This document shows positions 55,195 to 59,411 of a stretch of DNA of 64,000 nucleotides, in pieces (the first letter of the stretch is position 1; each line of letters begins with the position of its first letter). Source of the stretch: Bacteroidia bacterium. Lineage in GTDB: Bacteria > Bacteroidota > Bacteroidia > Flavobacteriales_D > JAUILH01. The translations under genes and the position numbers were made by a program. Under the pieces are notes generated by a model that did not search any database, was not told the origin of the DNA, and was given only the letters and a program-made list of their open reading frames with translations. The stretch lies in the NCBI GenBank assembly GCA_030433115.1, contig JAUILH010000004.1, positions 1-64,000 of the forward strand, in the 5' to 3' direction.

Positions 55195-57318
55195 CTATCT
55201 GCCACCAGAAAAGTTCTGTGTGCCCAAACAAGATGAAGTTGATTTTCTCAATGCCATGCCGCATCCCAGGTAGTTGAATTCTTTTGAGAGAATGTTTTTT
55301 CTGTGGCCCGGAGAATCCATCCACATATCCACGAAAGCGTAGGCCACTTCCAGGTAGGTAGAACCGTAGTAGGATACTTTTGCAATGTTCTCGGCTTTCT
55401 GACCGTCACCCACGCCAAATCGAGCCATGCGCATGCCAGGGTCTCTTTTGCTCCCGTCTTTAGGATTGATATGGGAGTAGAAATTGTCACGAGCCATGTC
55501 TTCACTGTGCATGTCGGCTGCTTTTCTTAATGAGCTGCTGTGCTTGAATGGAGAACGGTTATGAGCCACTCTCTTTTCATTCGTAACATAAAAAATACAC
55601 GCGTCCAAAAGTGCCTGGTCGAAATTGTTATCATCTATTTTTTCCTTGATTTGAGGTAGCTTCATGAAGGCTTGTCTACTGGTTGTTTTGTAGTCGCTAT
55701 CACGCCATTTTTTTGATGAATTTCCGGAACCGGATGTGTTCGACCAAGCTTCTAATTCGGGCGTATTTTGAGAAGCACCATTGGATTCGATTCCAGGTTC
55801 AGTCTGACTGCCTTCATGATTTTCCCAATTGTCTACTGCATACTCATGCAGACGGTATTTCGCTAGGAAAAATTCTGTGTTTCCAGAGTATTCAGGAGCT
55901 TTTCTGGTCGAGCCAAACTCTTTTGGGTCCAATACATAGGATCTGCCTTCACCAAAGAGTAGGAATGTGTTTTTACGAATGTCCAGATGAACAAAAAAGT
56001 TTGCGGTACCACAGCTAGACTTATAAAAGCCATTGTTCTTACCGTCTTTATTCCCAAAAACGTGGCTGTCGATTTTTTGACCGTAGCTATTGAATTTTTC
56101 GAAATAAACGGACCACCACAAGCCTTCAGAGCAATGAGCTCTGGTAGTATAAATCTCTCCGTTGGAAGGGTCAATTTGAAGTGATTCGCCATAATTGCCA
56201 CCATTTTTCTTGTCTCTTGACTCCAACGCTTTTACCCATTTCAATTTGCCTGAAGAAGCATATTGAGCAATAAATGCCTGATTTCGGTTTCCATAAGTTT
56301 TCGACAATTTTTCACTTTGGTTGATGCCAAAAGTAGATTTGGAAGAACAAGTTCCGAGCACCGTTACATTATGATTCGCATCTACGCTGATGGAAGCGAT
56401 TTCCTCTGATTGAGAGCTTCTGATCAGGTTTGCCCAAATCATCTCTCCTGTACTGGCATCAAGGCAAGCTACCATAGCTTCAGTGTTGTAGAAGTAATCT
56501 TTGTCTTTTTTGATGGCAGCATAGTTTTTTTGCGAACCATCCTTGAAGTTCAAGCTGATCTCATAGTCGCCTGAAATACTTGTTCCAAGGTATAGTTTGT
56601 CTCCTTTCAATTGAATAGAACCCGGTGTGTTGCCATTAGGCAGATATTTTCTGTAGATTTCCTCTCCGCTTGGACTGATCTTTGCCACATTGGCCGGATA
56701 GCTGATTAAGTAACTGTTCCCTTTCGAATCAACCACAAAGTCTCTGGTGCTGCTATAAAAACCACTTGTATACGAACGGGCCCAAATAAGCTGTCCTGTT
56801 TTGTCGTATTTGGCCAAAAAATCCACAGTACTTTCGCTTTCAATATAGTCAGTGTCGCTTGATAAATCCATGTCCTGCTTTCCTTTGTGAACTCCAAAGA
56901 CATAGATGTTTCCTGATGGGTCTAATTCAATTTTTTCTGCACTTAAGTAACCACCACCTTTTACCGGTGAGTCGAATGGTTTGATCCACTGCAGTCGTCC
57001 TGTGGGATCAAATTTTCCAAAAAAGTAGGTGGTACCAGATGCTTTTGAACCGCATGAATAGTGATTGCCATTCATGTTCAGAGCTTTTCTGAAAAAACCT
57101 ACCGCAAAGATGTTTCCGGATTGGTCTAGTTCTATGTCCAGAAGTCCTTTGTCGTTGTCTTCAATTGTTTGTCTTTCCGTCTGGTCAGATGAAAAATTGA
57201 GGAATTCTAAGTTGGAACTTAAATTTGATTGTGCTACGCTTACCTCTGGGGTTAAGCCAATGAAGGAGCTAGTTAAACTGAGAGCTATAAACTGTTTGGA
57301 AATACTTGCGAATGTCAT
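55195..57318 (-). CDS. Secreted propeller protein with C-terminal CAP/SCP domain
   Basis: A 707-residue protein: signal peptide MTFASISKQFIALSLTSSFIGLTPEVSVAQ, a long region (about 45-480) of repeated strands of the SBBP/YTV propeller type (DQSGNIFAVGFF, DPSGNIYVFGVH, DSKGNSYLISY, DANHNVTVLGT), an acidic/Ser linker, and a CAP domain (about 570-705: LLDACIFYVTNEKRVAHNRSPF, MHSEDMARDNFYSHINPKDGS, MWMDSPGHRKNIL). The CAP motifs HxxxM and SPGHRxNIL are intact. Such proteins may bind glycans, sterols or cell-wall material. No sorting domain is seen at the C-terminus. Confidence 0.85.
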   Translation of the reverse strand: MTFASISKQFIALSLTSSFIGLTPEVSVAQSNLSSNLEFLNFSSDQTERQTIEDNDKGLLDIELDQSGNIFAVGFFRKALNMNGNHYSCGSKASGTTYFFGKFDPTGRLQWIKPFDSPVKGGGYLSAEKIELDPSGNIYVFGVHKGKQDMDLSSDTDYIESESTVDFLAKYDKTGQLIWARSYTSGFYSSTRDFVVDSKGNSYLISYPANVAKISPSGEEIYRKYLPNGNTPGSIQLKGDKLYLGTSISGDYEISLNFKDGSQKNYAAIKKDKDYFYNTEAMVACLDASTGEMIWANLIRSSQSEEIASISVDANHNVTVLGTCSSKSTFGINQSEKLSKTYGNRNQAFIAQYASSGKLKWVKALESRDKKNGGNYGESLQIDPSNGEIYTTRAHCSEGLWWSVYFEKFNSYGQKIDSHVFGNKDGKNNGFYKSSCGTANFFVHLDIRKNTFLLFGEGRSYVLDPKEFGSTRKAPEYSGNTEFFLAKYRLHEYAVDNWENHEGSQTEPGIESNGASQNTPELEAWSNTSGSGNSSKKWRDSDYKTTSRQAFMKLPQIKEKIDDNNFDQALLDACIFYVTNEKRVAHNRSPFKHSSSLRKAADMHSEDMARDNFYSHINPKDGSKRDPGMRMARFGVGDGQKAENIAKVSYYGSTYLEVAYAFVDMWMDSPGHRKNILSKEFNYLGCGMALRKSTSSCLGTQNFSGGR

Positions 57319-57497: not shown

Positions 57498-59411
57498 ATG
57501 AGAATCACTTTCTCCATACTATGTTGTCTCTTCCTTGTTATTTCAAGAGCACAGGAGGCGCCTGATTATATCTCCAGGATTGAAAGTTTCGAGTCCTATG
57601 AGATGCTTCAAGGCAATCCCTTGTCTACTAAGTTTGGAGACGTAAAATCTTTAAAGGTAGCATATCAATATAAAGATGATGTTTTGTACTTCATGAACTC
57701 TACCAGATTTAAGTACCATCTGGAATTTTGTGAGGAGGTCTTGAACTATTACAAGGGCAGTTTCAATTTCAATTACGACAATTACACCAAAACAGAAGGT
57801 CGTGATTATATTTTGGCAAATATCAACTTCTATTCCAGCGACAGCATATTCACCTTGGAATTCTCTATTGCGGATCAAATTAAAGTATCGGATATTGAAA
57901 TGTTGTATGGCAAATTGAAAACCCACTTTCTGCTCACAGATTCACTAAAGCTATTCCTGAATACCTCTCAATTGGAGAATAGATTTAAAAAGTCAGGATC
58001 TAAATTGCCTTCAATAGGTGTTGACGAGATATATGCTGGACAAACCTTTCAATCAATACAGCCGGGGACTTCATATGGCATACTGAAGTTTGTGGATATT
58101 CAGGACGTGCATCATCAAATTTGGTCAAATAACATCATTGTGATGAAGGGAACACCCAATGAATTATCATTGGTGCAAGGTGTTATTGCTAATGATATGC
58201 AAACCCCATTGAGTCACATCTCCATATTATGTAAGAATAGAAAAACACCGTTTTCAGCACATAAAAACGCCTGGAATGATTCTCTGCTGAGGAGTTTGGA
58301 GGGACAGTATGTTCGTTTGACAGTGAATTCCTACAATTACCAAATAAAGCCTGTTCCGGAAGACTCTGCCAAGGCGTTTTTGGCCAAGCATTTGAAACCA
58401 AAGCTGAGCCATGAGTTGATGATTGATTTGGACCAACAAGACATCATTGATGGAAAAGACCTGGGATATGAAGACATCATTCAGGTGGGTGCGAAAGCCG
58501 CTAATTTTGGAGAGCTCATTAAAGCCAGTAAAAAGAAAGGAGCCAAATTCAAAACACCTGAAAATGCCTTTGCCATTCCTTTTTACTATTATATGGAACA
58601 CCTTGAGCGCTCGGGAGCACAGGGCCTAATAGATAGCTTGTTGCATTTGGACTATGATGATCATTCAACTCAAGTGGACCTCTTGAAAGCAATCAGAAAG
58701 CGAATAAAGGCAACTGCTGTCGACTCAAATCTGGTTAAACTCATTGAAAATAGGTTAAAGATGCACCCTGAATACACCAGCTATCGATTCCGGTCGTCCA
58801 CCAATGCAGAAGATATTGAAGGATTTAATGGAGCAGGTTTATATACGTCCACGAGTGTAATCCCAGGACATGAGAAAAAAACGGTAGAGCGTGGACTCCG
58901 GAAAGTGTGGGCAGGTATCTGGAATGATCGGGCGTTTTTTGAGCGACTTTACTTTGGAATTGATCAAAAGAATGTAGCCATTGGTGTACTTGTCCATAGA
59001 GGATTTCCGGATGAGCTGGCAAATGGAGTGTCTATTACGCACAATATATACCGACCAGCCAATCTTGGATTTGTCATCAACGTTCAGAAAGGAGATATTC
59101 CGGTCGTGAACCCTCCTCTAGGAGTGGTATGTGATCAATTGATTTGTTACTCCGATACTGACAATACCTTCTACAACCCTAAAAGAATAGTGGAGTATAT
59201 TTCCAAATCTTCCGAAAATGAAGGGGATCAGGTGTTGGATGACAAACAGGTTGTATTGCTTACTAAGGAACTGGCTAAAGTCAAAAAACACTTTTATAGA
59301 AAGGTCAATAAAAATTGGTTGAAGTACGATTATCAGAGTTTTGTGCTTGACATTGAATTCAAACTGGATAAATCCGGGTATTTTTATATCAAACAGGCAA
59401 GACCATTTTAA
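57498..59411 (+). CDS. Exported PEP-utiliser/ATP-grasp protein
   Basis: About 637 residues from ATG 57498 (MRITFSILCCLFLVISRAQ), an export signal; the upstream ATG at 57429 is rejected because a near-promoter box (TTAATTTG, 57481-57488) lies between them. An N-terminal unknown part (about 20-180) is followed by a phosphohistidine-type domain (MQTPLSHISILCKNRKTPF near 230-260, with the likely swivelling His) and a C-terminal ATP-grasp of PPDK/PEP-synthase type (GAKAANFGEL, YRFRSSTNAEDIEGFNGAGL, FVLDIEFKL ... FYIKQARPF). The order is reversed relative to PEP synthase and the PEP-binding barrel is absent. Substrate unknown. Confidence 0.82.
   Translation: MRITFSILCCLFLVISRAQEAPDYISRIESFESYEMLQGNPLSTKFGDVKSLKVAYQYKDDVLYFMNSTRFKYHLEFCEEVLNYYKGSFNFNYDNYTKTEGRDYILANINFYSSDSIFTLEFSIADQIKVSDIEMLYGKLKTHFLLTDSLKLFLNTSQLENRFKKSGSKLPSIGVDEIYAGQTFQSIQPGTSYGILKFVDIQDVHHQIWSNNIIVMKGTPNELSLVQGVIANDMQTPLSHISILCKNRKTPFSAHKNAWNDSLLRSLEGQYVRLTVNSYNYQIKPVPEDSAKAFLAKHLKPKLSHELMIDLDQQDIIDGKDLGYEDIIQVGAKAANFGELIKASKKKGAKFKTPENAFAIPFYYYMEHLERSGAQGLIDSLLHLDYDDHSTQVDLLKAIRKRIKATAVDSNLVKLIENRLKMHPEYTSYRFRSSTNAEDIEGFNGAGLYTSTSVIPGHEKKTVERGLRKVWAGIWNDRAFFERLYFGIDQKNVAIGVLVHRGFPDELANGVSITHNIYRPANLGFVINVQKGDIPVVNPPLGVVCDQLICYSDTDNTFYNPKRIVEYISKSSENEGDQVLDDKQVVLLTKELAKVKKHFYRKVNKNWLKYDYQSFVLDIEFKLDKSGYFYIKQARPF

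Follow-up and report, generated by a model that had tools for sequence, protein, structure and literature searches.

A conserved, apparently exported GWD-like dikinase family of Bacteroidota with a recurrent DUF4956 neighbour

The gene, its domains and their predicted structure

The window (the whole stretch of DNA that was analysed, 64,000 nucleotides from a Bacteroidia bacterium) carries at 57498-59411 (+) an open reading frame that runs from an ATG at 57498 to a stop codon at 59411 and encodes a product of 637 amino acids. The longest mechanically called reading frame opens at a TTG (57429), while the ATG at 57498 yields a signal-like start (MRITFSILCCLFLVISRAQ-E). From N- to C-terminus, and all on the + strand, the protein comprises a predicted signal peptide (residues 1-18, MRITFSILCCLFLVISRA; 57498..57551; cleavage before Gln19 was judged by eye), an N-terminal domain (residues 20-180; 57555..58037; supported by alignments A2 and A3 and by a model of the lone domain), a GWD-type phosphohistidine (i.e. 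swivelling) domain (residues 181-289; 58038..58364) and a PPDK-type ATP-grasp domain (residues 312-637; 58431..59408). This agrees with the preliminary description of the gene, which had named a signal-like start, the segment LSHISILCKNRKTPF (residues 238-252) and a C-terminal ATP-grasp.

The expected phosphate carrier is His240 (in TPLSH), which is invariant across the relatives; the histidine itself had been recognised before, and only its position needs correction, from near 58213 to the codon at 58215..58217. In the ATP-grasp domain, Lys333 of VGAKAANFGEL (58494..58496), the predicted nucleotide-binding lysine, aligns with VGGK of the PEP synthase chains, and RSSTNAED (residues 432-439; 58791..58814), in which Arg432, Glu438 and Asp439 are invariant, aligns with RSSATAED of PEP synthase. 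The metal/ATP-site end, with Asp618, Glu620, Gln633 and Arg635 (DIEF...QAR; 59349..59402), aligns with DIEW...QARP of 2ols, the PEP synthase chains thus carrying equivalent motifs at the aligned catalytic positions, and the protein terminates at QARPF. Both the RSSTNAED and the QARPF ends are present as had been claimed.

The identity and order of the domains were computed directly. Pfam assigns PPDK_N (PF01326) to residues 329-636 (E 1.2e-19) and GWD1_pHisD (PF22973) to residues 184-289 (E 4.5e-6), the latter with 26.7 bits against a cut-off of 27 in the whole-protein scan, and with 30.8 bits, above this cut-off, in a six-frame search of the protein's own genome. In the six-frame search, the GWD1 phosphohistidine domain was absent from all 14 control genomes. 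At E 1 the window protein has no other Pfam match than these two, a pyruvate/PEP-binding domain being absent, and the PEP synthase models of NCBIfam match by their N-terminal (ATP-grasp) part, with 86 bits against a cut-off of 598. The layout of PEP synthase and PPDK (ATP-grasp, central His domain, C-terminal PEP/pyruvate-binding domain) is therefore not the one found here. The domain order had initially been regarded as reversed, which holds only relative to PEP synthase and PPDK: in plant GWD and PWD the phosphohistidine domain likewise precedes a C-terminal ATP-grasp, and Pfam names the domain after GWD1. The order is therefore not new, and was rejected as a novelty.

An AlphaFold2 model of the full-length protein (73 aligned sequences) has a mean pLDDT of 92.7 and a pTM of 0.90. 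In comparisons with VIA-align, the ATP-grasp domains of both rifampin phosphotransferase (Z 30.2 with 5hv1, rmsd 2.1, 286 aligned) and PEP synthase (Z 28.8 with 2ols, rmsd 2.3, 290 aligned) can be superposed on residues 312-637, and residues 181-287 match the swivelling domain of the phosphotransferase (5fbu, 754-867; Z 11.3, rmsd 2.8, 99 aligned). With these fits of the model to 5hv1 and 5fbu, the domain match is far beyond chance. Structure prediction and alignment with PEP synthase, which had been proposed as a check on the gene, bear out the ATP-grasp in both its fold and its aligned motifs. No solved GWD structure was among the matches listed in the structure and PDB comparisons.

Folded alone, the N-terminal domain reaches a pLDDT of 94.4, and six of its residues are invariant in the 73 relatives (Pro41, Lys53, His74, Phe77, Tyr96 and Asn110). 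Pfam matches nothing in this domain of the window protein, Foldseek gave no match at E 0.001, and the comparison with the PDB by VIA-align yielded no credible relative (best Z 4.6). That the domain binds a glycan, as the preliminary description had suggested, is therefore conjecture, and the lack of a recognisable module for starch or glycan binding in it counts against the dikinase reading. Polyphosphate kinase 1 took three of the first four rows, a likeness that was discarded, its Z of 4.0-4.6 being below the noise level of the tool. A starch-binding module (CBM45 or CBM20) was found neither in the window protein (Pfam, E 1) nor in the listed families of the 73 members, and the protein is therefore filed as GWD-like rather than as a GWD.

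Conservation, export and distribution

Alignment A2 consists of 73 sequences with 35-44% identity to the window protein. It was drawn from 85 proteins, of which 12 were omitted (L051, L076, L085, L089, L093, L096, L099, L102, L104, L108, L111 and L113, i.e. one duplicate contig and near-copies), and L100 and L109 were placed in it without their N-terminal extension. His240, Lys333, Arg432, Glu438, Asp439, Asp618 and Glu620 are unchanged in 73/73, and Gln633 and Arg635 are kept in 72, with one gap. An equivalent of His240 is present in all longer relatives as well (4/4 of type B, ~830 aa; 6/6 of type C, ~1315 aa; 11/11 of type D, ~970 aa), and the whole catalytic set is kept, gaps aside, in these 21 proteins, one of the ~970-aa relatives being cut by a contig end. 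The GWD phosphohistidine model, on the other hand, is matched at E <=0.01 by only 24 of the 73 members, which counts against the reading as a dikinase.

Loss of the ATP-site residues, named in the preliminary description as something that would speak against an exported dikinase, is not seen in A2, where they are kept apart from the one gap. The pseudo-enzyme that it had offered as an alternative is made unlikely by the invariant catalytic set, and was set aside as the main reading in view of the conservation over the 73 sequences. A catalytically dead scaffold, which preserves the fold only, would agree with the scarcity of ATP outside the cell, and an exported enzyme fold can act as a binding protein; considering that six catalytic positions (His240, Lys333, Arg432, Glu438, Asp618 and Glu620) have stayed the same in 73 sequences with 35-44% identity to the window protein, this reading is highly improbable.

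A hydrophobic N-terminus of signal-peptide strength occurs in 79 of 80 relatives' loci, although for this figure start codons had been picked for hydrophobicity, which favours export; as a control, a similar single rule was applied to focal proteins and neighbouring ORFs alike, and was passed by 81 of 84 of the former against 354 of 784 of the latter. The N-terminal ends of the 73 aligned proteins are lipobox-like in 14, cleavage-like in 42 and neither in 17. Among the latter, L055 lacks a hydrophobic start at the chosen start codon, while L100 and L109 had been shortened and possess a hydrophobic start at full length. The ~830-, ~970- and ~1315-aa relatives also open with signal-like sequences, and Por_Secre_tail/TIGR04183 scored above cut-off in both proteins scanned (L023 and L024) of the ten type-B/C proteins at hand. 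The window protein itself, in which no Por_Secre_tail was found, has a predicted Sec signal peptide, judged from its sequence and the family comparison. Export is apparently a trait of the whole dikinase-like family and not of the window protein alone, and the original picture of the protein (exported, with ATP-grasp and phosphohistidine domains, its N-terminal domain left unassigned) is strengthened by the signals common to the family and by the type IX tails of two relatives. A membrane anchor, suggested at the same time, could apply to some members (in L035 and L065 the start is hydrophobic over a long stretch and shows no clear cleavage site), but does not suit the lipobox-like and cleavage-like ends of most others.

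If the hydrophobic N-terminus were not an export signal, the protein could simply be a cytoplasmic metabolic enzyme of the GWD or PEP synthase kind. It is the sole PPDK_N protein found in its genome (94% complete), so that redundancy gives no argument against a metabolic role, and the starts of L035 and L065 would also fit. The lipobox-like starts and type IX tails of the relatives, as well as the unmatched pyruvate/PEP-binding domain, argue for the opposite, and we therefore consider a cytoplasmic enzyme very unlikely. Neither a PEP synthase nor a PPDK was found in this genome.

The export signals and the intact ATP site would equally suit an exported nucleotide sensor, or a scavenger of extracellular ATP, that autophosphorylates without a dedicated acceptor, and the N-terminal (acceptor) domain indeed has neither a Pfam nor a PDB fold assignment. 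However, the fact that both His240 and an N-terminal domain with invariant residues of its own have been kept implies transfer to some acceptor, which leaves the sensor or scavenger a rather doubtful candidate.

With the single window protein as query, a first contig search found no relatives; a second contig search found 152, and 80 loci were retained. By title, nearly all records belong to Bacteroidota. Among plasmids, tblastn returned only two records, both annotated as PEP synthase and covering half of the query. The short form is present in 5 of 60 genomes and in at least 8 of 395 genomes of the phylum (each time including its own), the latter being a lower bound because at most three candidates were scored per genome. 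This patchy distribution counts against the dikinase reading. A tree made by a quick method places the window protein together with a clade of Crocinitomicaceae (SH-aLRT 84). One Fibrobacter MAG, outside Bacteroidota, holds two copies of the family (L055 and L071), through either transfer or mis-binning.

Gene neighbourhood

When the 84 relatives' loci and the window were clustered, one neighbour recurred across distant genomes, namely a membrane protein with DUF4956 (E 3e-46, 1e-49 and 3e-21 by Pfam in the three members scanned), which is encoded beside the dikinase gene in 22 of the 84 loci. In 14 of these it lies downstream, tail to tail (Chryseobacterium, Epilithonimonas, Flavobacterium, Taibaiella and Edaphocola), and in six, from Tenacibaculum and another member of the Flavobacteriaceae, it is immediately upstream in the same orientation, with the ends of the two genes overlapping or touching in Tenacibaculum. 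The remaining two (by title, L065 from Flavipsychrobacter and L082 from Chitinophagaceae) have a run of dikinase, VTC domain (a polyphosphate-polymerase domain) and DUF4956. Adjacency to DUF4956 was seen in four further loci (L173-L176), at least one seemingly from a genome already counted. The three arrangements form three separate clades of the gene tree, which points to about three origins of the DUF4956 link. By a rough estimate (not simulated), with one copy per ~3500 genes, ~0.05 DUF4956 neighbours would be expected by chance in 168 adjacent slots, whereas DUF4956 is directly adjacent in 19 loci, which represent about three clades. Co-occurrence at the genome level was dropped as evidence, since VTC and DUF4956 are nearly universal in the order, being present in 50 and 56, respectively, of 60 relatives' genomes anyway, and it is therefore only adjacency that carries weight. 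Two Chitinophagaceae dikinases (L074 and L087) fall within the Weeksellaceae/Flavobacterium clade and have the identical DUF4956 arrangement, which suggests that dikinase and DUF4956 were transferred as a pair.

At the window's own gene neither DUF4956 nor VTC is adjacent, and both this and the limited reach of the DUF4956 link (22 of 84 loci, about three origins) count against the dikinase reading; in this genome the dikinase is located on contig C142, and VTC and DUF4956 on contig C247. On the latter (G000:C247:4614-6842, L177) the genes for VTC, DUF4956 and DUF2490 are consecutive. The neighbours of the window gene (a CAP-domain protein, a small protein and a 2-hydroxyacid dehydrogenase) give no functional hint. 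The product of the divergent neighbour, at 55195-57318 (-), is exported and combines a repeat region with a CAP domain at its C-terminus.

In five Tenacibaculum loci an exported histidine-phosphatase (SixA-like) lipoprotein is encoded directly downstream of the dikinase (e.g. L045:8906-9403), the placement that a phosphate cycle would want. Of ten exported 970-aa relatives, the two that were checked both lie beside an exported beta-lactamase-fold protein (PF13354; L163:1841-6042 and L165:3538-7740).

It could be that the exported phosphotransferase does not depend on environmental ATP but is fuelled through the VTC/DUF4956 pathway (e.g. with polyphosphate that a VTC-domain polymerase would make in the cytoplasm and DUF4956 would export), either onto His240 directly or by recharging a nucleotide. 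Besides the adjacency of DUF4956 in three arrangements, including those of Tenacibaculum and the two VTC-containing runs, it agrees with this that at least three genomes of relatives (G010:C37, G027:C11 and G030:C126) have CotH, another kinase family, next to VTC-DUF4956. Contiguous cotH, polyphosphate polymerase and DUF4956 genes are also reported for Gram-positive pel loci (PMC7112168). However, VTC adjoins the dikinase gene in only two of the 84 loci, the mere presence of VTC and DUF4956 in a genome is uninformative, polyphosphate transport by DUF4956 was not found in the literature searched, and the fully kept ATP-grasp residues point to a nucleotide as the donor; fuelling through this pathway is therefore unlikely. 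In a wider version, VTC polymerase and DUF4956 would move phosphoryl energy outward, exported kinases (the GWD-like dikinase here, CotH elsewhere) would use it to phosphorylate glycans of the envelope or outside the cell, and the exported histidine phosphatase would remove it again. As a whole this scheme is quite speculative and probably incorrect, but if true, it would make covalent phosphorylation outside the cytoplasm independent of environmental ATP. Open-licence PMC yielded no paper on VTC in combination with CotH and others.

Interpretation and comparison with known systems

Considering the sequence, the structural model, the conserved catalytic set, the export signals of the family, the recurrent DUF4956 neighbour, the histidine phosphatase of Tenacibaculum and the analogy with known dikinases, it seems somewhat probable that the protein is an active, extracytoplasmic, Sec-exported GWD-type dikinase whose acceptor lies in the envelope or outside the cell and may be a glycan. 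ATP would be bound by the ATP-grasp domain and its beta-phosphate transferred to His240, with release of AMP and phosphate; the swivelling domain, which carries His240, would then deliver the phosphoryl group to an acceptor positioned at or close to the N-terminal domain. This would take place in the periplasm or on the outer membrane and, in relatives that have a type IX tail, at the surface of the cell. For GWD itself, PMC7569903 describes autophosphorylation of the histidine with the beta-phosphate, followed by transfer to the glucan, while the gamma-phosphate goes to water. By analogy, the acceptor of the exported dikinase may be an envelope glycan or glycoconjugate; we infer that the enzyme is active and that it has access to ATP, or to a different phosphate donor, outside. 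ATP is scarce outside the cytoplasm, which counts against an exported dikinase.

The conserved family is an apparently exported variant of a known dikinase type, with a domain order that is already known: it is widespread in bacteria and has all the parts for ATP-driven phosphate transfer that the plant starch dikinases have. Dikinases use up two phosphate bonds of ATP, and those known are enzymes of the cytosol or of plastids. An intact exported family, part of which probably uses type IX secretion, raises the question of whether bacteria are capable of phosphorylation beyond the cytoplasm at the expense of ATP and, if so, what is phosphorylated and how this is fuelled. The adjacency of DUF4956 provides a first genetic handle on this membrane family, and is the most useful new lead. 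Among the matches listed for the terms used in open-licence PMC, none dealt with GWD-like dikinases exported by Bacteroidota, and the words sought in a paper on the Tenacibaculum maritimum secretome (PMC10288586) were absent from it.

Like GWD1 and PWD/GWD3, the window protein has a GWD1-type phosphohistidine domain directly before a C-terminal PPDK-type ATP-grasp, with the full catalytic set. Unlike them it is predicted to be exported, has no CBM45/CBM20 match and has an N-terminal domain of its own without known relatives, at half the length of GWD or less. With PEP synthase and PPDK it shares the ATP-grasp, for which they provide the best sequence relatives in the PDB, whereas the order of the two domains is opposite, no pyruvate/PEP-binding barrel is matched, and export is predicted. 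Rifampin phosphotransferase provides the nearest solved structures for both domains (5hv1 and 5fbu), but is cytoplasmic and has its ATP-grasp first (1-313) and its swivelling domain last (754-867). Compared with the CotH/VTC/DUF4956 groups, the window's gene lies away from VTC and DUF4956, and the kinase fold of CotH differs from the dikinase fold; what some relatives of the window protein have in common with these groups is that the gene of a phosphate-transfer protein adjoins those of VTC and DUF4956.
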